64,000 nt of DNA from Methanosarcina barkeri 3. GTDB lineage: Archaea > Halobacteriota > Methanosarcinia > Methanosarcinales > Methanosarcinaceae. Within the stretch, counting starts at the first letter, position 1. Each line of letters opens with the position of its first letter. Position numbers and translations under genes: made by a program. Below are positions 32,435-55,634 of the stretch, piece by piece. The notes under the pieces were generated by a model, which was not told the DNA's origin, did no database searches, and worked only from the letters and a program-made list of their open reading frames with translations. Where the stretch lies: NCBI RefSeq assembly GCF_000970305.1, contig NZ_CP009517.1, positions 3,348,001 to 3,412,000 of the forward strand, given 5' to 3'.

Positions 32435-32545
32435 AAATACATACGAAAACAGTAAACCTAAAAAAGGTCCCCTGACAAAAAGAATAAAATCTGGAAAGGA
32501 AACACCATTTATAGAAATACCGTTTATAGATTGTGGGGGGCCGTT

Positions 32546-35500
32546 ATGTCTGAGTCCGTAAATAAGGGTAACTCAAACGTGAACCTTGAGACGTACCTGA
32601 AAAATATAATATTGGAAAACAGAGATGAAGTCTGTAACTACGTAGAATTATCGGCCAGAGAAATATTGCCAATTACGCGCAGGCTATTCGAAGAAAGGGT
32701 TTCCCTTGCTTACGACTTCAAGATCTCACAGATCGTGGAAAAAGAAAGGCACCTGATAATTTACGGGGAAGCAAGTTCGGGAAAAACAAGCACCCTTAAG
32801 TGGCTGAGAACTGTCTATGCCAGGGAATATATACTGAAAAGAGAAGAGTTTGTTCCGATATATATAGAGCTTGGTTCATATGTTAAAGGTTCTTTTTATA
32901 ATTACTTAAAAGCACAGGTAACGAAAAAAGGTATTTCTGAAACGGATTTTAAGAAACTGATTGAAGGAAAAGCTTTGTTGTTACTGGATGGGTTTGACCT
33001 GCTCACACCTTCTGAAAAATTCTCTCCCTTTGATGAAATATCCGATTTTATTTCCGAGTATGAAACCTGTAGATATGTTATTGCTTCAAGACCCGAGCCT
33101 TCTGATAGCTTAAAAAGTACATTTGCACTCTCCGAACTTGAGAAGTTGACCGATGAAAAAGTCAGGCTGTTTATAGAAAGAAATGTTCCGAATAAGAGAC
33201 AGGTGAAGCTTTTAAAAACTATAATCCTGGAGGAGACTCAGTCAAAACCTATTCTCAAGAACCCTCTGCTGCTTTGCCTCTGGATCAAACTTTCAACTGC
33301 GCACATGGGAAGAAGAGGAAAACAGGAAGATATCCAGCACTTTACCTCTTGTGATTCTATTCCTTCCAGCCGAGCAGAAATATATCAGGCTTTTGTTTCG
33401 GAACTTTTTAAAGATTACAGGAAAAGAGAGGAATATTTTAGATCCCAGAACCAACTGCCTCCAAAGATGTGTTTCGAGAGAACAGACTCTGAAACAATAA
33501 CATATGAGAGAACAGACTCCCATAAACAAGGTATAGAAAGAACAGGCTCTCAAGAGCTGAGTAAAGAAAAAACAAACTCTCAGGAACTAATTACAGAAGT
33601 AATAGACTCTCAAGACCTGAGTACAGAAAGAAAAGACGCTCAAGAGCTGATTAGAGAGAGAATAAACTCCCAGGAAGCAAGTAAAGGAAGAACAGACCCT
33701 CAAGAGCTGAATACCGAAACAGTAGAAATTGAAGATTTCCTGATGAGCTTGGCCTTCAAACTCCAGTGTAGGAATAAGATTTCATGTAAGTATAGTTGTG
33801 CCCTTGAAGTAGCAGAAGCATACATAGAATCCAGAAGACCTGGAAGGACTATAGAATACAGCAGGTCTGATAGAGTAAGAGCGAAGAAACTCCTTCAAGA
33901 CTGCTTAAGGCTCGGACTCCTGATAAGAACGAGGTCCGAAGTAAAGTTCGGAATAGATCGAGCTTTCCAGGAATATTTTGCGGCTCTGAAACTGAAAACA
34001 TACTTTGAAAGCGGTATGGATACTTCAAAAGCCTTCATAAATCCGAGATGGGAAAATGTGATAATGCTCACCTCGGATTTACTGGAATCAGGAGAAGAAC
34101 TTGTAAATTCGATTGTGTCAAGCGGAAACTTATATCTGGCTTCAAAGTGCGCTTTGAGAGCCAGCCCCGAAACAAAAGGAAAACTATGTACTTTACTTGC
34201 CAGGAAACTTGACAGCAAGTATACTGTAGAAAAAGTAAGAGCTATTCAAAGCCTTGGAAGACTCGGAGCCTGTGGGATCAAGGCCAATATTGGAGCACTT
34301 AAGGATAAAGATATAAGAGTAAAAAGAGAAACTACGAAAGTGCTTGGGGAAACCAGGTCAGAGATGGCACTTGTTCCCCTTGGGGCTGCAATTGGAGACG
34401 AAGATTATTCTGTGCGGATAGAAGCCGTAAAGTCTCTTGGCTTAATAGGATCCGAAAGAGCAATCGAATTGCTCAGGGACACATTCAAAGATAAGAATCG
34501 AGCTGTCCGACTGGAGGCTGCAGATGCACTAATGCAGATAGGATCGGAAAAAGCTCTGGAAGTCCTTATTTCAGCACTTGGGGCCAACGATGACTTTGTT
34601 CGGATTGGAGCTGTAGGAGCTCTTGGAAGAACAAACTCCAGGCAAGTAGCAGAAGCTCTTATAAAAGCATTTCAGGAAGAAGACAAACTTGTCAGGTTGG
34701 GAGCAGCCGAAGCCCTGGGCCGAATGAGATCGGAAAAAGCTGTTGAACCGTTTGTAGATGCACTTGAAGATAAAGATGAGTTTGTGCGCTGGATTGCTAC
34801 AAAAGCGCTTGGAGAAATCAAATCGGATAAAACTTCAGGCACATTTATCGATATGCTTGGGGATAAAAGCCGCTTCGTTCGAAGGGAAGCTGCAAAAGGG
34901 CTTGGGGTTGTAGGGTCAGAAAAAACGCTTGATCCCCTTGTTTCCGCACTTTCGGATGAGGATGAATTTGTAAGAAAAACAGCAGTAGAATCCCTTGGAG
35001 AAATAAAGTCCGAAAAAACTGCTAAAACCCTGATAAATAAACTCCACGACGACAGCCATTTAGTCAGACTGGAAGCCGCAAAAGCCCTGGGAATGATAAA
35101 AGTCCGGAAAGCTATTGCTCCGCTGCTTTTTGCACTGGGGGATGAAAACCGTTTTGTCAGGAAAGAGGCTGCAAATGCGCTCGGACAGCTTGAATCGGAA
35201 AAAGTTCTTGAGCCGCTTATTCGTATTTTCAAGTCCGAAGACCCTCTTACAAGGCAAGGGGCAGTAAGAGCTCTTGGCCAGATAAATCTGGACGGAGTTC
35301 CGGACTGCATATCGGACCGAATATTTGATTTTACTGATAATGCCCTGAAGGACAAAGATAAGTTTGTGCGAAAGGAAACCGCAAAAGCCCTGCAAAGCCT
35401 ATCAGAAAGCAGGCGCGAAAGAGCGTTTGAATCCCTGATCAGCGCTCTGGATCATGAAGATGACGAGGTCAGGAGGCTTGCAGCCGAGTCCCTGGGGCTT

Positions 35501-36112
35501 TTTGATTGTGAAAAAGCTATCCCTCCACTGATCAGTGCCCTAAAGTCCAGAGATGCAACCGTGCGCCGGTTTGCAGCCAATGCCCTCGGCCGGATAAGGT
35601 CAAAAGAAGCCCTACAGCCTCTGATAGATATTCTGGTTTTTGACAACAGTGGCTTCGTAAGAGAAGAAGCTGCAAAAGCGCTTGGAAAAATAAAGTCTAG
35701 ACGGGCTATAGAACCCCTTATTGATGCACTAATGGACAAGAATAATGAAGGAAGATCAGGAGCAGCCGAAGCTCTTGGCCGGATTAAAGCCGAAAACGCA
35801 GTCAATCACCTTATTTCCGCCCTTACGGACACGGACGATTTTACGCGGCTGGCTGCTGCAAAAGCCCTCGGCCGGATAAAGCCGAAAAAAGCCATCGAGC
35901 CCCTGATCAACAGCCTTTATGACTGGAACCGTTTCGTAAAAGCCGAAGCTGCCGGAGCTCTCAAAAAGATATGTACTGAAGAGGACAGACAATGTTTGCA
36001 GGCTTTACTTGACTCGGAAAACGAATTTACGGCAAACCTCGCTTTTGAAATCCTGGAGAACATCGAAATGGAGGAAATCTTAAAAACCGAGCTGTTTTTA
36101 GAGTGGGAATAG
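32546..36112 (+). CDS. NACHT-type STAND NTPase with C-terminal HEAT repeats
   Basis: A 1188-residue cytoplasmic protein. Order: N-terminal 70 residues of unknown type; NACHT NTPase with Walker A GEASSGKTS (74-82), Walker B LLLLDGFD (144-151) and sensor VIASRPEP (about 178-185); an insert of eight 10-residue repeats of ERTDSQELSK type (311-390); a winged-helix-like region ending in IDRAFQEYFAALKLKTYF; then about 19 HEAT repeats (555-1165), each ending with VR-x-x-AA-x-ALG. This is the build of bacterial/archaeal NLR-like proteins, some of which are antiviral sensors in which the repeats bind a trigger and the NACHT part oligomerises. No effector domain is obvious. ATG at 32546 follows GGGGGG. 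Confidence 0.92.
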   Translation: MSESVNKGNSNVNLETYLKNIILENRDEVCNYVELSAREILPITRRLFEERVSLAYDFKISQIVEKERHLIIYGEASSGKTSTLKWLRTVYAREYILKREEFVPIYIELGSYVKGSFYNYLKAQVTKKGISETDFKKLIEGKALLLLDGFDLLTPSEKFSPFDEISDFISEYETCRYVIASRPEPSDSLKSTFALSELEKLTDEKVRLFIERNVPNKRQVKLLKTIILEETQSKPILKNPLLLCLWIKLSTAHMGRRGKQEDIQHFTSCDSIPSSRAEIYQAFVSELFKDYRKREEYFRSQNQLPPKMCFERTDSETITYERTDSHKQGIERTGSQELSKEKTNSQELITEVIDSQDLSTERKDAQELIRERINSQEASKGRTDPQELNTETVEIEDFLMSLAFKLQCRNKISCKYSCALEVAEAYIESRRPGRTIEYSRSDRVRAKKLLQDCLRLGLLIRTRSEVKFGIDRAFQEYFAALKLKTYFESGMDTSKAFINPRWENVIMLTSDLLESGEELVNSIVSSGNLYLASKCALRASPETKGKLCTLLARKLDSKYTVEKVRAIQSLGRLGACGIKANIGALKDKDIRVKRETTKVLGETRSEMALVPLGAAIGDEDYSVRIEAVKSLGLIGSERAIELLRDTFKDKNRAVRLEAADALMQIGSEKALEVLISALGANDDFVRIGAVGALGRTNSRQVAEALIKAFQEEDKLVRLGAAEALGRMRSEKAVEPFVDALEDKDEFVRWIATKALGEIKSDKTSGTFIDMLGDKSRFVRREAAKGLGVVGSEKTLDPLVSALSDEDEFVRKTAVESLGEIKSEKTAKTLINKLHDDSHLVRLEAAKALGMIKVRKAIAPLLFALGDENRFVRKEAANALGQLESEKVLEPLIRIFKSEDPLTRQGAVRALGQINLDGVPDCISDRIFDFTDNALKDKDKFVRKETAKALQSLSESRRERAFESLISALDHEDDEVRRLAAESLGLFDCEKAIPPLISALKSRDATVRRFAANALGRIRSKEALQPLIDILVFDNSGFVREEAAKALGKIKSRRAIEPLIDALMDKNNEGRSGAAEALGRIKAENAVNHLISALTDTDDFTRLAAAKALGRIKPKKAIEPLINSLYDWNRFVKAEAAGALKKICTEEDRQCLQALLDSENEFTANLAFEILENIEMEEILKTELFLEWE
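33476..33715 (+). repeat. 30-bp coding repeat, 8 degenerate copies
   Basis: Eight in-frame 30-base units code for E-R-T-D-S-Q-E-L-S-K-like decapeptides (residues 311-390 of the NACHT protein). Highly charged and probably disordered or helical; the copies have diverged, so the array is older than the non-coding arrays. Confidence 0.93.
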
Positions 36113-40025: not shown

Positions 40026-40115
40026 AAAATTGGGAATTACAAAATTGGGAATTACAAAATTGGGAATTATAAAATTGGGAATTATAAAATTAGAAATTAT
40101 AAAAATTAGAAATTT
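40026..40115. repeat. 15-bp tandem repeat, about 6 copies, reaching the MinD stop codon
   Basis: AAAATTGGGAATTAC with T/A variants at 40026, 40041, 40056, 40071, 40086 and 40101. The last unit overlaps the stop and final codons of the MinD-like gene ending at 40106. The rest of the 39676-40025 spacer is AT-rich with promoter elements for the gene at 39675. Confidence 0.92.
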
Positions 40116-41038
40116 TTCATCTCGAGGGTTTTAGTTCCTTTCTGTTTATCCTGAATGTTCATAAGTATCTTTTCCATCCTGGTCCAGATTTGGCAGATCT
40201 GATCCGCAAACTCACTTTCATTTAAACACTTACTGCTTTTAACATACTCTATCAAGGTTTTTTCCTGAAGCATTGCCTTTGTTACAATATCATTATAAGG
40301 AAGCTTACCTATTACCGAAATTCCCAGTTTGGCACAGAAATTTTCAATCAGCTGAGTATTCTCTTCGTTTATGTCGTACTTGTTTATGCAGACAACAGTG
40401 GGAATCACGAAGTGAACAGTAAGTTCAAGAACTCTTTTAAGGTCATGGACTCCGGAAACAGTTGGTTCGCTTACCACCAGTACCAGATCCGCACCTGTAA
40501 TAGCTGAAATCGCGGAACAGCCTGTTCCAGGAGGCCCGTCAATTATAATCAAATCTTTATGATATTGTTCTGCAAGCTTTTTCGCGTTACTTCGAACAGC
40601 GCTCACAAGTTTTCCGCTTGTTTCTTCTCCTATGCCTAGACTCGCATGAGCCATAGGCCCAAAACGGGTTTCGGAAGAAAAAACCTGACCTGAAATCCTT
40701 TTTTCCATGGAGACTGCACCTTTTGGACATATAACGGTGCAGACAGCACATCCATCGCATCCGTAAGGGTCAACTTTGAAATTTCCACTCACAGCCCCAT
40801 ACCTGCAAAACTCTTTGCATCTTCCACACTCGATACAGAGTTCAGGGTCAATTCTGGCAACCTCAAGACCGTAGTAGTCTTCTTTTTCCAGAACTTTGGG
40901 TTTCAGGATAAGATGCATATCAGATGCATCCACATCGCAATCGGCAATAATAGCATTTTTTGCAAGCGAAGCAAAAGCTGCTGTAAGGGTTGTTTTTCCA
41001 GTTCCTCCTTTTCCGCTGATTACTGTAAGCTGCTTCAT
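40106..41038 (-). CDS. MinD-superfamily ATPase with inserted ferredoxin domain (copy 2)
   Basis: A 310-residue P-loop ATPase of the COG1149 type. A deviant Walker A GKGGTGKTT lies at residues 9-17, then an inserted 2[4Fe-4S] domain (CIECGRCKEFC and CDGCAVCTVIC, eight cysteines, about 68-110), then switch motif DGPPGTGCSA and the NKYD guanine-like motif. Such proteins come as adjacent pairs near NifX-like proteins and probably load or transfer Fe-S clusters or metals using ATP; this is not proven. The start overlaps the preceding gene by four bases (ATGA). A 15-bp array begins at its stop. Confidence 0.92.
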   Translation of the reverse strand: MKQLTVISGKGGTGKTTLTAAFASLAKNAIIADCDVDASDMHLILKPKVLEKEDYYGLEVARIDPELCIECGRCKEFCRYGAVSGNFKVDPYGCDGCAVCTVICPKGAVSMEKRISGQVFSSETRFGPMAHASLGIGEETSGKLVSAVRSNAKKLAEQYHKDLIIIDGPPGTGCSAISAITGADLVLVVSEPTVSGVHDLKRVLELTVHFVIPTVVCINKYDINEENTQLIENFCAKLGISVIGKLPYNDIVTKAMLQEKTLIEYVKSSKCLNESEFADQICQIWTRMEKILMNIQDKQKGTKTLEMKNF

Positions 41039-41892
41039 GTTCTCGCCTCCTCTGTATCTGCAAGCTGGAGTTTTATTGCCTCAAACATACCACGAAACTT
41101 CTCATTCCATTCAGGCATTTCTTGAACAAAGGGAATACCGCGAGAATAGAGCTCTGCAATTTTAAGATTGTTTGGGATCTTGAGAAGGATAGAAATTCCT
41201 TCGGCCTTGCAGTACTCTTCAACCCTTGAGTCTCCTAACCCCCAGCGGTTAATAACAACCCCAAAGGGAACTTTAAGCGACCTTACAACGTCTACGGCAA
41301 GCCTGAGGTCATGGAAACCAAAAGGGGTTGATTCAGTCACAAGCACACAATAATCCACATCTCCGATAGAGGCAATAACAGGGCAGGCAGTTCCGGGTGG
41401 GGCATCGAGAATTGCAGTTTTTCGGTCATCAACATATTTCTTAAGTGTCTTGATAACAGCTGATGTCATCGTTTCCCCGATATTTAAAAGCCCCCTGTAA
41501 AACTCAGGAGAACTTTCTCCTTTTGCTTTTTCGATTACTCCAAGGGATCTCTCAGATTCCCGGATTGCCTTTTCCGAGCAGAGGACAGCGCATCCTCCGC
41601 ACCCGTGGCAGAGAGAAGGGAAAAACAAAATTCTATCAGGAAGAGCAGCCAGAGCATTATAACGGCAAAAGTCCGAACATTGCCTGCATATACTGCATTT
41701 TTCCTGATTGATTACAGGCACCGGGCAAACGACATCTTCTACTTTTTCAAGGCCAAAGCCAAGGAAAAGATTACAGTTAGGTTCTTCCACATCACAGTCA
41801 AAAAGCTGTACATCTGAAAGAGAAAGAGCAAGGTTTAAGGAAACCGTAGTCTTCCCGGTTCCTCCTTTTCCACTTGCAATTGCAATTTTCAT
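41035..41892 (-). CDS. MinD-superfamily ATPase with inserted ferredoxin domain (copy 1)
   Basis: A 285-residue paralogue of the next gene: Walker A GKGGTGKTT at residues 8-16, an inserted ferredoxin domain with two four-cysteine motifs (CSICRQCSDFC, CHGCGGCAVLC), DAPPGTACP and NRWG. Starting at ATG 41892 gives the family N-terminus MKIAIASGKGG and has GGAG eight bases upstream; an ATG at 41910 overlaps the CDF gene by four bases (ATGA) and would add six residues. It likely forms a heterodimer with the following protein. Confidence 0.92.
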   Translation of the reverse strand: MKIAIASGKGGTGKTTVSLNLALSLSDVQLFDCDVEEPNCNLFLGFGLEKVEDVVCPVPVINQEKCSICRQCSDFCRYNALAALPDRILFFPSLCHGCGGCAVLCSEKAIRESERSLGVIEKAKGESSPEFYRGLLNIGETMTSAVIKTLKKYVDDRKTAILDAPPGTACPVIASIGDVDYCVLVTESTPFGFHDLRLAVDVVRSLKVPFGVVINRWGLGDSRVEEYCKAEGISILLKIPNNLKIAELYSRGIPFVQEMPEWNEKFRGMFEAIKLQLADTEEART

Positions 41893-41906
41893 ATCCGATC
41901 TCCATG

Positions 41907-43142
41907 TCATTTCATAGGAGTTGTGATTTCTTCGAAATTCTGGAACCTGTCCAGGACGTCTCTAGCAGTATCTACCCCATCGGGAATTTGCAGAATTTTT
42001 ACAAAATTATCTCGGAGCATGTAATATGGACCTTCCCCAACAGTTTTTACTGCAAGGACATTTGCTTTTTCTCTAATAATTAAGTCCACGGCTTTCATGC
42101 CTCCTTTTTTCTCAGAATTAAAAAACTGATTTTCGAAAATTTTCCAGTTCCCTACCCTACCCTCTTCAAGATCAACAAAGAGAAAATAAGGGGTTTTTCC
42201 AAGGTGTCCCGAAAGTTTTGCTTGAAACCCATTCATATCGAAAACTGGAAGAGCTAACCTAAAGTTCTTCCTTTGTACAGGCTTTACATTAACAACAATA
42301 TGCTCCAGGTTTTCCACTTCTTTTTTAACAGCCGTCTTGACTTCCTCTGAAAGCAGCTCCACCCTTTTCAGGTCGGTTTCACCCTCAACTTCAACCGTAG
42401 CTTCCCCGAAAACCACAAGTCCCGATTTTCGGAGTTTCAGATCTTCAAGTTTTATCAGGCCTGGAATACTGCGTATGTCTTTTTTAATTCTCTCACTTTC
42501 CTCTTCATCGAGCCAGGCATCCATCAGGGTGAGCACTGAATCCCTGGCACTTTCAACCCCCATTTTGAAAATCAAGAGAGAGATTACAATAGTACCGAAA
42601 CTGTCGAGTTTCGAGATCCCCAGCATAGAGCCAAGGACTGCCACAACAACTATCATCGAAGAAAATACATCCGTATAGGAATGCATAGCGTCAGCTATCA
42701 AAGACTGAGAGTTGATCCTTGTGCCTATGTTTCGTTTGTATATAGAAAGGCCATATATTGTAAGTACTGAAAAAACAGCTGTCACAAGAGCAAGCCCCTG
42801 AAATTCAAGCTGAGAAGTAGTATTTACGCCTGTAAAGCCTTCTTTTAACAGTTCAACGCCAGAAAACAGGATTAATAGAGAAACAAAGAGAGCTATGATA
42901 TTCTCTGCTTTGTAGTACCCATAAGGAAAATGCTTACCACTACTTTTAAGGCTTATCTTGAGCCCAATCCAGACTGCCAGAGATGCAAAAATGTCCAGAC
43001 CTGTATGGACAGCATCCGCAATCAAGACTGTGCTCCCGGAGTAAATACCCACAGCCCCTTTAACAAGAGCAAGAAGTGCAAGTGCCAGAGTTGCGTTCCT
43101 TGATGCTTTAATCCCGAGTTTCAAGCTTTCCTGTGCAATCAT
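41907..43142 (-). CDS. CDF-type cation efflux protein fused to a NifX-like domain
   Basis: A 411-residue protein. Residues 1-210 form a six-helix cation diffusion facilitator with both metal-site motifs (ADAVHTGLD and ADAMHSYTD); residues 215-295 are the usual cytoplasmic CDF domain. From about 297 on (RLALPVFDMNGFQAKLSGHLGKTPYFLFVDLEEG...) is a dinitrogenase-iron-molybdenum-cofactor (NifX/NifB C-terminal type) domain, an unusual extra. CDF proteins export Zn, Fe, Mn, Co or Ni with proton exchange. It is the first gene of an operon with two MinD-ferredoxin ATPases (ATGA overlaps), suggesting iron or Fe-S handling. Confidence 0.9.
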   Translation of the reverse strand: MIAQESLKLGIKASRNATLALALLALVKGAVGIYSGSTVLIADAVHTGLDIFASLAVWIGLKISLKSSGKHFPYGYYKAENIIALFVSLLILFSGVELLKEGFTGVNTTSQLEFQGLALVTAVFSVLTIYGLSIYKRNIGTRINSQSLIADAMHSYTDVFSSMIVVVAVLGSMLGISKLDSFGTIVISLLIFKMGVESARDSVLTLMDAWLDEEESERIKKDIRSIPGLIKLEDLKLRKSGLVVFGEATVEVEGETDLKRVELLSEEVKTAVKKEVENLEHIVVNVKPVQRKNFRLALPVFDMNGFQAKLSGHLGKTPYFLFVDLEEGRVGNWKIFENQFFNSEKKGGMKAVDLIIREKANVLAVKTVGEGPYYMLRDNFVKILQIPDGVDTARDVLDRFQNFEEITTPMK

Positions 43143-43287
43143 TTGAGATCCGTTTTAGTGAGTTATTGATTCTCACCACAATTCAGAAAATGAGTCTTTA
43201 AAAAGTCGAACATTTGGAAAATTGGTCTTTAGAAACTGAAACATTAAGAAAATTGAAACCCTTCTGACACTTTCTGGCAGTACTCAT

Positions 43288-43462
43288 TCGTGATATCGTG
43301 GTGCAATACTAATTAGTGATATCCAGCAGTGCAATACTAACTAGTGATATCGTGGTGCAATACTAACTAGTGATATCCAGCAGTGCAATACTAACTAGTG
43401 ATATCCAGCAGTGCAATACTAACTAGTGATATCCAGCAGTGCAATACTAACTAGTGATATCA
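43288..43462. repeat. 26-28-bp tandem repeat, about 6.5 copies, abutting a stop codon
   Basis: Units AGTGATATCCAGCAGTGCAA plus TACTAACT (28) alternate with AGTGATATCGTGGTGCAATA plus CTAACT (26). The last partial unit (AGTGATATCA) includes the stop codon of the NifX-like gene ending at 43460. The unit contains GATATC and ACTAGT palindromes. It lies between the NifX-like gene and the CDF operon. Confidence 0.95.
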
Positions 43463-43837
43463 GTGGTGGTGATGTTCCTCATGCCCGTGTTCAGAACAGG
43501 AGTTTTCAGCAGTTGCGCTATGGAGTTTTCCTGCTTTCCAGGCCTCATATGTATCTTTTACTGTACCTTCGGCCCCCACAAAAACCTTGATTCCATAGGA
43601 CTCGAACATAGTAACAGCCTTGAACCCAAGTCCGCCACAGAGCATGATATTCACTCCGTTCTTATGAAGGTACTCAGGGGGCAGCCCCACGCCTCCCATA
43701 TGCTCACTGGTGTTAGGAATAACAGTGACCTGGTTGGTCTCTGTGTCTATTAGAGTGTAAGTTGGAGCTTTTCCAAAATGCTGTTCAACAACACCTTCCA
43801 GACCATTTTCATCTCTTGTAGGAATACTTACTTTCAT
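43460..43837 (-). CDS. NifX/NifB-like dinitrogenase cofactor-domain protein with His tail
   Basis: A 125-residue single-domain protein of the dinitrogenase iron-molybdenum cofactor family: MKVSIPTRDENGLEGVVEQH start, FGKAPTYTLID, and PPEYLHKNGVNIMLCGGLGFKAV. The C-terminus HGHEEHHHH is a metal-binding tail. NifX-like proteins carry Fe-S or metallocluster precursors. ATG at 43837 has AGGTGAT five bases upstream; a frame to 43909 lacks a ribosome-binding site. It is near a second NifX-like gene and upstream of the CDF/MinD operon, on the same strand. Nitrogenase genes are not in the window, so a general Fe-S role is likely. Confidence 0.9.
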   Translation of the reverse strand: MKVSIPTRDENGLEGVVEQHFGKAPTYTLIDTETNQVTVIPNTSEHMGGVGLPPEYLHKNGVNIMLCGGLGFKAVTMFESYGIKVFVGAEGTVKDTYEAWKAGKLHSATAENSCSEHGHEEHHHH

Positions 43838-43909
43838 ATAATCACCTGTACTTTCTATCGCTTTATCAATAAGTAGTGTTTTTATCGGTATTTTTACTGT
43901 GAGATACAT

Positions 43910-44120
43910 TCTTGAGATTACATAGCTACTTATCTTTTTCAGAAATTAAAAGTAAATAGTTTCTTTTTTAATAAATTAAAAGAAATAATTCCCTTTTTTG
44001 GAATTTAAGGAAAAAATAATGCCGTTTTTCGGAAATTAAGAAAATAATACTGTTTTTCACACATGGAGGAATGTGTCCTTCTCAGAAATTTTGTTTTACT
44101 AACTTTATCAAGACTAGTGC
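43910..44120. other. Spacer between two NifX-like genes
   Basis: A/T-rich, with three loosely repeated GGAAATTAAG-AAAATAAT words (43940-44050). No gene. Confidence 0.35.
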
Positions 44121-44552
44121 TTAATTGCCTCTACCTATTCCTCTTCCCGCACCACCTCCTTTCATTCCCTTTCCCATGCTATTTCCTTTTCTCGTACCAA
44201 AACCGGGAGTGCTGTTGGGACTTTGGAGTGACTGGAGTTCTCCAGCCTCATACTGTCTGATAGCCTCTTGCACTGTACCCTTTACTCCTACTTGAACATC
44301 AATGCCAAGCTCCGAGAAAATAGAAAAAGCATTAGGTCCCACAGTACCTGTTAAGAGGACATGGACTCCTGCGTTTGCAATAATTTCCGCTGCCTTTATA
44401 CCGGTACCTCCAGAGGCGAATGCAGCTGCATTTGATATAGATTCCACACGTCTGGTCTCAGGATCATAAATTACAAAATAGCTGCATCTCCCAAACCTTG
44501 GGTCCACTCTGGAGTCGAGACCCTCACCACTGGCTGTTACGCAAATGTTCAT
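44121..44552 (-). CDS. NifX/NifB-like dinitrogenase cofactor-domain protein with Gly/Met tail
   Basis: A 143-residue member of the same family as the gene at 43460: MNICVTASGEGLDSRVDPRF, GRCSYFVIYD, and GVHVLLTGTVGPNAFSIFSE. The last 30 residues are Gly/Lys/Arg-rich with two Met (GNSMGKGMKGGGAGRGIGRG), perhaps disordered or metal-binding. ATG at 44552 follows AGGTGGAG; an in-frame start at 44585 is less likely. It probably cooperates with the NifX-like and MinD-ferredoxin proteins in Fe-S or metal trafficking. Confidence 0.9.
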   Translation of the reverse strand: MNICVTASGEGLDSRVDPRFGRCSYFVIYDPETRRVESISNAAAFASGGTGIKAAEIIANAGVHVLLTGTVGPNAFSIFSELGIDVQVGVKGTVQEAIRQYEAGELQSLQSPNSTPGFGTRKGNSMGKGMKGGGAGRGIGRGN

Positions 44553-52683: not shown

Positions 52684-54474
52684 TTAAACTATCTTGATAA
52701 TACTATCCGGGTGTTTTCCGGTTTTGTCAATTGTATGAACTGCACATGCAAGGCAGGGATCATAAGAACGGGCTGTATGCAGAATTCCGAGAGGATTTGC
52801 ATAATCCACCCCAAGGGCATTTTCGGCAGCTGAGATCTTTGTGCCTATAAGAGCCTGCTCAACAGGACTTGGAATTCCCTGCCCGTTCCGTGGAGCAAGG
52901 TTCCAGGTGCTTGGAACTACAGCCTGATATAACGTTGCCATAGAGTCCGAATCCGTAGCTACCCAATGCCCCAGAGCTCCTCGAGGGGCTTCCCACAGTC
53001 CCATTCCTTCGGAACTTTTTGCCATGGAAAGATCGGTATGCACCGCAACCTTTCCTCCTGCCTGAAGATCCTGCCTGAGCCATTTCAACAATTCAGATAT
53101 CATTATCAGGACTTCCTGCATCCTTGCAACCATGCGGGTATAGTTGTTCGCAGGAGAATAGCCGTTTTCCTGGAAAGTGTTTGCAAGTCCCGTAATAAGG
53201 GGTTCTTTCATAATCAGAAGGCGGGCAAGAGGACCAACCTCACAGGGAATCCCGCCATAATGAGGAGCCTTTACCCAGGAGTACCGGCTTTCCGAACCTC
53301 TGGTATAATCAATTTCATCGGGATTGCCTTCTGGATTCGTAACCCCGTTCCAGGGAGGACGGTCCATTTCCTGATCAAGATAAAAGGCGTGAGTGATATT
53401 TTCCGAAATTTTTCTGTAGTCGAACTTTTCAAGCTGAAAATGTCCGTTCATATATCCAGAAGGAATGACCTTGCTATCCGCAGGGCTTGTAGGATCATAT
53501 CCATCTCCATTCTCGGGCTTGAAAAAGACCCCGTAAGAAAGGAAACCAATCTTATCGGGATCTTTATATCCCCCTGCACGGTCCAGCTTCAGACTAACTG
53601 GTAAGCCAAGCAGAGTCTCTCCAATGAGTTCCGAACCGAAAGCCGCAAAAAGCGGAACGTCTCCCCAGCCTGAAGATAGTGAAAAATTATTGTTCTTAAG
53701 GGAATTATTAAGGAGTTCCTGAAGGCGACCAATAACGAAGTTTACAGCTTTTTCCGGAGAAGAAGCTTTATAAGTATTTTCAATCCAGGTTTCCGGAGAA
53801 ACTCCAAGTGTAAACGATTCAACGAACTTCGCAGTCTCTGAGACAGTTGATATGAGCTTCCCAATGTCTGCAACAGTTGGAGAGTAGACAACTCCTCCTA
53901 CGTGCTGTAACACTGTGTGAGGCATTTTTCCTCCAATAATAGCAATACCTTTATGGAGGCGACGAAACTCACCTAGAGCAGCGACATAAGAAGATCCGGC
54001 AGGATAACGGACACCGTTAAACTGGTTTACGATAGGCATAAAACGTCCGGATAACTCTCCCCATACTGCATTTCCCACATCTCCGTATTTGGCAAGGATA
54101 TCATGGTAAGCCGGGTTTGCAAGGTCAGGACCCCAGAGCACATAGATATGAGCTGCGTGACTGGCGATGTAATTCATTGCCTGGTGGATATTTCGCATGA
54201 CAAGGGCATCTTTGGGAATCTGGTCCGCGACCCCGAAAAGGTCATCCATCGCGTTTGCTGCAGCTATACTGTGGCAAACCGGACAGACTCCGCAGATTCT
54301 CATAGTGAAAAGAACTGCATCCCTGGGATCGTGTTTTTGAAGAGATCTTTCAAAGCCCCTGAAAACCAGACCATTACTCTGGGCATCAGTGATCACTCCG
54401 TCAGCACTGACTTCAGTATTGATTCTATAATGCCCTTCAATTCTTGAAAGAGGATCTACGGTCACCTGTACCAT
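52684..54474 (-). CDS. vhxA: [NiFe] hydrogenase large subunit (Vhx)
   Basis: A 596-residue group 1 [NiFe] hydrogenase large subunit. Both Ni-Fe ligand motifs are intact: [10 protein letters not shown] (Cys61, Cys64) and DPCLACAVH (Cys574, Cys577, His580). The 16-residue tail after His580 ([16 protein letters not shown]) must be cut by a maturation protease; no protease gene follows in this set, so VhtD may serve. The start overlaps the vhxG stop by one base (TAATG), with GGAGGTGAG upstream. Catalytic residues look functional, unlike the small subunit partner. Confidence 0.95.
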
Positions 54475-55634
54475 TACTGCTCACCTCCTGGCTTTCCTGA
54501 AGTGCTTTCTTCAGTCGTGCCTTCGTTTTCCTCCGGCTTTTTCAAAACCGTTCTTCTTAAGGCATGGGCACCTGCAGCAATAAGGCCACCTGCTATTGCA
54601 ACACCTGCTATGGTATCTAGGTTAGTATCGACAATTCCGGCATCTTCAATTTCCACATAAAAAGGTCTGGTGCTGTCCGGAAAACCCGGTTGCACACAAC
54701 CTATACATGGAGAACCGGCCTGCGGACAGAAATTTACATGATCGTTCCAGTGACGTATAGCACAGTCAGCATGGGAGTAAGGCCCTTTGCACCCAAGTTT
54801 CCAGAGACATTTTGGTCCGCCTACTGTCGTTTCGAACTCTCCTTTATCATAGTATCCACGACGCGGACAGTTGTCGTGTACTGTATGGTCTGGAGGGTAA
54901 AAAACTTTAGGACGTTTCCAGTGATCCAGGACTTGAGGAAAATCATCAGGTACTTTGATTTTTCCGAGAACGACTGCTCCTATGGTTAAAAATACCCAGT
55001 CCGGATGAGCAGGACAGCCATTAACATTGATAACAGGTGTGTCTATTCCAAGCAAGTCTACAATTCCCTTTGACGCATCCTCCAGAGTAAAAGCAACTCC
55101 CCGGTGATCCATAAGTCCGACTATATCACTTTCAGCAGCATTTACTCCACTATTGGTTGCACACTGTCCGATTGCAACAATTAGTGAGGCGTTCTTTGCA
55201 GCTTTCTCGAAAGTATCTTTATAGATCTTTCCTCCGAGAACCATATATTTTCCGGAACCGTGAGGCCCGTTTGCGATTGCACCTTCGGCAATAAGAACGT
55301 AGTCTTTTTCTTTATCCAGAATTTCCTCAAGCAGGATTTCGGAATTGAGATCACTCGTATTTGCAAGTTTTCCATCTACAAAAATTCCCTGCTGCATCAT
55401 CAGTACTTCCTGATAGAGCAGATTGAGATTAAAAATCTGGAGAAACTCTATAATGTCAGGATTTACCCCGTCCAGCATTGAGATACTACATCCCGAATCC
55501 ATTACTCCATGAAGCCAGAGTACTTTGGTTTCAGGTAGTCCACTGAGGGCTTTTGCTATATCACTTTTATATGTTTGTAAAAATAGCGAAGCTCCCAGTA
55601 CACCAACGGCTTTTATAAAGGTCCGTCGATCCAT
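54474..55634 (-). CDS. vhxG: [NiFe] hydrogenase small subunit (Vhx), altered proximal-cluster site
   Basis: A 386-residue Tat-exported small subunit (RRTFIKAVG at residues 3-11) that would carry three Fe-S clusters from the active site to cytochrome b. Medial and distal cluster motifs (CLWKLGCKGPYSHADC, CPQAGSPCIGC) are intact, as is NGCPAHPDW. The proximal motif, ECTGCS in the family, reads MDSGCS: Asp46 replaces the first Cys and Met45 the Glu thought to relay protons. Upstream in-frame codons look like the usual pre-Tat leader but contain no start before a stop. A C-terminal helix (about 344-362) anchors it. Confidence 0.9.
   Translation of the reverse strand: MDRRTFIKAVGVLGASLFLQTYKSDIAKALSGLPETKVLWLHGVMDSGCSISMLDGVNPDIIEFLQIFNLNLLYQEVLMMQQGIFVDGKLANTSDLNSEILLEEILDKEKDYVLIAEGAIANGPHGSGKYMVLGGKIYKDTFEKAAKNASLIVAIGQCATNSGVNAAESDIVGLMDHRGVAFTLEDASKGIVDLLGIDTPVINVNGCPAHPDWVFLTIGAVVLGKIKVPDDFPQVLDHWKRPKVFYPPDHTVHDNCPRRGYYDKGEFETTVGGPKCLWKLGCKGPYSHADCAIRHWNDHVNFCPQAGSPCIGCVQPGFPDSTRPFYVEIEDAGIVDTNLDTIAGVAIAGGLIAAGAHALRRTVLKKPEENEGTTEESTSGKPGGEQ

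Follow-up and report, generated by a model that had tools for sequence, protein, structure and literature searches.

A CDF transporter with a NifX domain fused to its C terminus is inserted into a cluster of soluble genes of an already described kind, the ORP/MrpORP module. The five genes, in the order NXa, NXb, CDF, M2, M1, are encoded on the minus strand of the window (the whole stretch of DNA analysed, 64,000 nucleotides), and the new element is the CDF–NifX insertion. By the kinship of their protein sequences, the four soluble genes are an archaeal ORP-type module, a point overlooked in an earlier note on this DNA. The arrangement suggests that metal export may be coupled to intracellular metal–sulfur handling, in keeping with the Fe–S or metal-cluster setting that the note had proposed. 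In its full form our explanation is that the locus is the Methanosarcina version of an ORP/MrpORP-type metal–sulfur module, equipped with a built-in CDF metal exporter whose NifX domain would sense or dock the carriers; we hold it with about even confidence.

The fusion is real, as both profile searches and the structural match of a model attest. The CDF gene (41907-43142, minus strand) matched PF01545 (153 bits), PF16916 (47 bits) and PF02579, every one above its curated cut-off, and TIGR01297 at 206 bits. The PF02579 match covers residues 309-401 and scores 41.5 bits against a cut-off of 26.3, which upholds, by the HMM test that the earlier note had set, the C-terminal NifX domain that it had read from the letters. 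We modeled the protein with AlphaFold, using 42 homologues (mean pLDDT 78.8; C-terminal domain mostly ∼80-90). Residues 1-290 of the model match ZnT/YiiP structures with Z up to 24; the membrane domain and the cytosolic ZT_dimer domain are encoded at 42267-43142. For residues 293-411 (NifX/ORP-fold domain, 41910-42266), the best NifX-type structure is the Desulfovibrio gigas orange protein (PDB ID code 2WFB), with a Z of 18.4 and an rmsd of 1.5 Å over 114 residues. We presume that this domain architecture is already listed in InterPro.

Cys is absent from the fused NifX domain of the window protein, and the domain is only weakly conserved across 49 homologues, where N338 and G348 are invariant and H313 is found in 43. 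In the tree, the fused domains form one clade separate from NXa and NXb (SH-aLRT 82, few columns), and the fusion looks old and single within the sampled phylum. On the strength of this clade, we rejected a recent copy of a neighboring NifX gene into the CDF. A search of bacterial plasmids found no CDF–NifX fusion (no place covered 80% of the query), a result with little bearing on chromosomes. The literature search, which covered freely accessible papers, found nothing relevant on the fusion except an entry in an ANME-2a network (PMC12622379).

We judge the direction of transport from the fold and the metal site. Known CDFs of the YiiP/ZnT fold are H+ antiporters that carry metal out of the cytosol, and H-D/H-D sites in CDFs favor Zn2+. 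The window protein shares with YiiP/FieF and ZnT the fold, the Cation_efflux and ZT_dimer domains, and the site A metal ligands (H46-D50/H154-D158). It differs from them in its extra NifX domain, and its site A reads H-D/H-D where YiiP has D-D/H-D; in addition, Phe replaces a His in the region of YiiP site B. Site A is invariant across the 49 homologues except for one Asn at position 46 and a Gln at position 154 in 16 of them (Gln for His in TM5); therefore, the transported metal may vary. We infer a role for the CDF in expelling excess divalent metal, most probably Zn2+ and possibly Fe2+. The earlier note had instead suggested that a route could lead from the transporter to cytosolic cluster carriers. 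Such a supply route, with the CDF bringing metal to cytosolic NifX carriers for cluster assembly, finds some favor in the way that fusion and operon bring transporter and carriers together, but known CDFs of this fold export, which makes it quite unlikely. The Zn-type His-Asp/His-Asp site and a fused domain that is Cys-free and of its own clade also speak against the inward route. Among curated CDF equivalogs, those of the magnetosome proteins MamB and MamM score highest for the window CDF (143 and 153 bits), far below their NCBIfam cut-off of 350 bits, and no magnetosome genes were seen in the window.

The two stand-alone NifX proteins encoded upstream, which the earlier note had named, match PF02579 at 82.5 bits (NXa, 44121-44552, 143 aa) and 68.6 bits (NXb, 43460-43837, 125 aa), both as single-domain proteins. 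The best PDB match of NXa is D. gigas ORP (2WFB, 83 bits), followed by MTH1175 (80 bits); it clusters with ORP and not with MTH1175 (SH-aLRT 93) in a poorly resolved tree from which IssA is absent. Its 36-aa tail holds 12 Gly, 6 Lys/Arg, and no Asp/Glu (pI about 12), and a cationic Gly/Arg-rich tail with a pI of about 10-12 is found in most NXa orthologues. The note had described the two tails as His-rich and Gly/Met-rich and suited to metal binding; the tail of NXb is rich in both Cys and His, and that of NXa is better described as cationic and Gly/Arg/Lys-rich.

With its IPR003731 domain and cationic glycine-rich tail, NXa resembles IssA and “IssX” of Pyrococcus in sequence; unlike IssA, it has a shorter, aromatic-poor tail and sits in an ORP-type operon. 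IssA stores thioferrate, and the chemistry of its cationic Gly-rich tail, also noted in uncharacterized IssX proteins, has been proposed to serve thioferrate binding (PMC5524996). Among 132 Methanosarcinales genomes, 110 were reported to hold putative IssA homologues (PMC8351635). By analogy, NXa may bind or store anionic metal–sulfide species.

NXb points to a different relative. It matches NF041136 (MrpORP), positions 259-356, at 54.8 bits, and of the NifX profiles, that of NXb scores the Di-Nase half of the clostridial MrpORP highest (55.9 bits); NXb therefore appears to correspond to the MrpORP Di-Nase half, here unfused to Mrp. Its C/H-rich tail recalls the CDH motif at the end of the MrpORP Di-Nase domain, which binds a [3Fe-4S] cluster, and Fe–S is passed from MrpORP to Orp3/Orp4 (PMC6345978). 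NXb would be a carrier equal to that half in detached form.

The remaining two genes bear out the pair of 8-Cys MinD–ferredoxin ATPases that had been proposed. M2 (41035-41892; CbiA 60 bits, Fer4, MinD/ApbC fold) and M1 (40106-41038; CbiA 52 bits, Fer4 37 bits) both carry GKGGTGKTT as a deviant Walker A motif, together with a ferredoxin insert of the 2x[4Fe-4S] type (41560-41718 in M2, 40706-40858 in M1). Each insert follows the pattern CX2CX2CX3C...CX2CX2CX3C, with all eight Cys invariant in 23 of 23 homologues of each protein, and in both proteins, DCD and PPGTxC motifs contribute further conserved Cys. The two could work as a pair, dependent on ATP and ferredoxin, in loading clusters, reducing them, or releasing them. 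Both MinD and ApbC are structural matches of the M2 model, and in D. vulgaris, MrpORP has a polar location (PMC6345978). Both observations favor a MinD-like localization role, with the ATPases positioning the complex at a membrane site and the CDF as anchor; however, a MinE- or MinC-like partner was not seen at the locus, and we regard this role as very unlikely. Antiphage defense was also considered for M1 and M2 and set aside, since PADLOC gave no matches for either. Elsewhere in the window, a 1193-aa protein (32531-36112) with a NACHT NTPase and many HEAT repeats partially matches PADLOC HEAT-containing models.

The assignment to the ORP/MrpORP kind rests on comparison with bacterial clusters. 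The ORP complex and MrpORP are found in Desulfovibrio and also in clostridia and Archaeoglobus (AF2378-2380). A clostridial cluster of Peptoclostridium (L123) reads NifX-MinD-MinD-MrpORP, the same order as NifX-M2-M1 here, and a Chloroflexota plasmid (L124) reads NifX-MinD-MinD-DUF59. The NifX protein of both clusters is scored best by the NXa profile (97-117 bits). The ATPase pair is related one-to-one to the bacterial pair: the M2 profile scores the first ATPase of the bacterial ORP-type clusters at 311-344 bits and the M1 profile the second at 321-324 bits, against 135-164 bits for the wrong partner. The locus thus shares with the ORP/MrpORP systems a ferredoxin–MinD pair in clostridial order, a single-domain ORP-type NifX protein, a Di-Nase carrier, and an Mrp in the genome. 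It differs in that Di-Nase and Mrp are separate genes, Mrp lies off the locus (the genome encodes its Mrp proteins at L092 and L093), and a CDF–NifX exporter is inserted. Because no fused Mrp–Di-Nase protein (MrpORP) is found in the window cluster, where the Di-Nase part is the separate NXb, we class the locus, as judged by its gene content, as a variant of the ORP/MrpORP kind rather than a strictly defined ORP operon. In Peptoclostridium, a DUF134 gene immediately precedes the ORP-type cluster; at another locus (L003, G000:C1 4.01 Mb), a 144-aa ORF for a putative DUF134-type protein is followed by a NifX-family gene.

Gene starts and spacing were then weighed for their bearing on an operon. 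The start of NXa at 44552 was upheld, with an RBS (AGGTGG) upstream, and NXb starts at 43837 behind AGGTGA, its orthologues being 119-125 aa long. M2 most likely starts at 41892, where there is a conserved Met7 and an RBS-like sequence and where orthologues begin, rather than at 41910. Of the two ATGA overlaps that the earlier note had described, that of M2 and M1 stands: it measures 4 bp and recurs at almost every locus. The CDF/M2 overlap is doubtful because it requires the start at 41910; the probable start leaves a 14-bp gap, as in two other loci (L038 and L053). The wider gaps in the window are those between NXa and NXb (283 bp) and between NXb and CDF (317 bp), the latter mostly occupied and widened by a 28-bp-unit tandem repeat array (43301-43468) between the NXb stop and the CDF start. 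In one related locus (L046), the NXa-NXb, NXb-CDF, and CDF-M2 gaps are only 19, 9, and 18 bp, and a single operon as the ancestral state is therefore plausible on the evidence of spacing. A TATA-like box lies upstream of NXa only, with a chance expectation of ∼45% for such stretches, and our literature search found no expression data on the locus.

We surveyed 295 genomes of the phylum for the fusion and its neighborhood, as the earlier note had suggested. M2-like ATPases occur in 167 genomes and CDF matches in 92 (both with E below 1e-30); of these 92, the fusion is intact in 76 and broken in one, and 15 lack the NifX domain. The broken case is a Methanosarcina draft genome (G148, L064), in which the CDF–NifX frame is interrupted between NXb and M2, either as a pseudogene or through an assembly error. 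The order NXa-NXb-CDF/NifX-M2-M1 is kept in Methanosarcina and relatives, and 11 of 14 CDF–NifX copies in Methanosarcinaceae adjoin M2, counting the broken copy. This conserved order backs the operon-like linkage proposed earlier, although two Methanosarcina genomes (G139 and G237) have the CDF–NifX gene apart from the module. Loci without the CDF exist as well: other Methanosarcinaceae and some further families have the bare core NXa-NXb-M2-M1, in most cases close to an Mrp/NBP35 gene (L103, L104, L106, L107, L119, L121, and L122), and in relatives, unfused Mrp flanks the module.

Placement within the module, seen in many Methanosarcinaceae, does not hold throughout: beyond that family, the fusion is mostly solitary, with no NifX or MinD genes nearby in 22 of 40 fetched loci (L052-L091). 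This solitude, together with the Cys-free fused domain of the window protein, fits an ordinary Zn/Fe CDF whose NifX domain is an extra regulatory or dimerization domain that binds metal ions, the operon being shared through common metal or sulfide stress with no physical coupling. However, CDF–NifX is linked to the module in further families as well, with other gene arrangements (L076, L078, L081, L082, and L090). The recurrence of linkage in such varied settings (L076, L081, L082, L090, and Methanosarcinaceae) tells against an uncoupled exporter, and we consider that account possible but doubtful.

We return to the preferred explanation, a module with a built-in exporter. In it, the CDF NifX domain, which lies beside the dimerization domain, would sense or dock metal–sulfide carriers, and efflux would thereby be tuned to the store. 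A stronger version would have the NifX carriers pass metal or a cluster to the CDF NifX domain, with ATP and electrons from M1 and M2, whereupon efflux opens; we think this unlikely. If true, such a gated exporter would be a direct physical link from Fe–S or metal–sulfide storage to metal export. We know of no established role for the ORP complex, and methanogens have a very high Fe–S demand. An exporter that shares the carriers’ domain and sits within the module is a concrete, testable hint at a role in metal–sulfide homeostasis, and genetic tools exist for the archaeal genus concerned.

In several Methanosarcinaceae, a F420-dependent sulfite-reductase (Fsr)-like protein (FrhB_N/C + NIR_SIR, ∼640 aa) is encoded between the NifX genes and the CDF–NifX gene (L042, L043, L057, and L059-L062), and one module without CDF also includes it (L105). 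Its presence inside the cluster in some genera points to sulfide; Fsr is absent from the window’s own cluster and present only in relatives.

A link to specific metallocofactors was weighed against the gene neighborhoods. One ANME-2 locus (L044) has the set Mrp-NifX-ferredoxin-ferredoxin-CDF/NifX, matching the gene order of the ANME-2a loci whose products (Mrp, NifX, two ferredoxins, and CDF) appear in a network around mcr, for which an F430 shuttle was suggested (PMC12622379). That gene order and the suggested shuttle are what favor dedicated delivery of F430 to methyl-coenzyme M reductase, or of FeMo-co to nitrogenase. Yet no mcr, cfb, or nif genes are adjacent in the window, and the module also occurs in nonmethanogenic bacteria. 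A nitrogenase link is ruled out, as the window holds no nif genes and the nif-linked NifX of the genome lies elsewhere (L005). Dedicated cofactor delivery is in our judgment highly improbable. The same ANME-2 locus and a second one (L049) have Mrp and NXa beside CDF–NifX with no adjacent M2-M1 pair, and the first adds two 119-aa dicluster ferredoxins.

Two further features of the window were recorded. A NiFe hydrogenase small subunit is encoded at 54474-55634, and short tandem-repeat arrays (28-bp units, 15-bp units, and others) occur, mostly between genes, at 40026-40104 and ∼50 other sites in addition to the one next to NXb.
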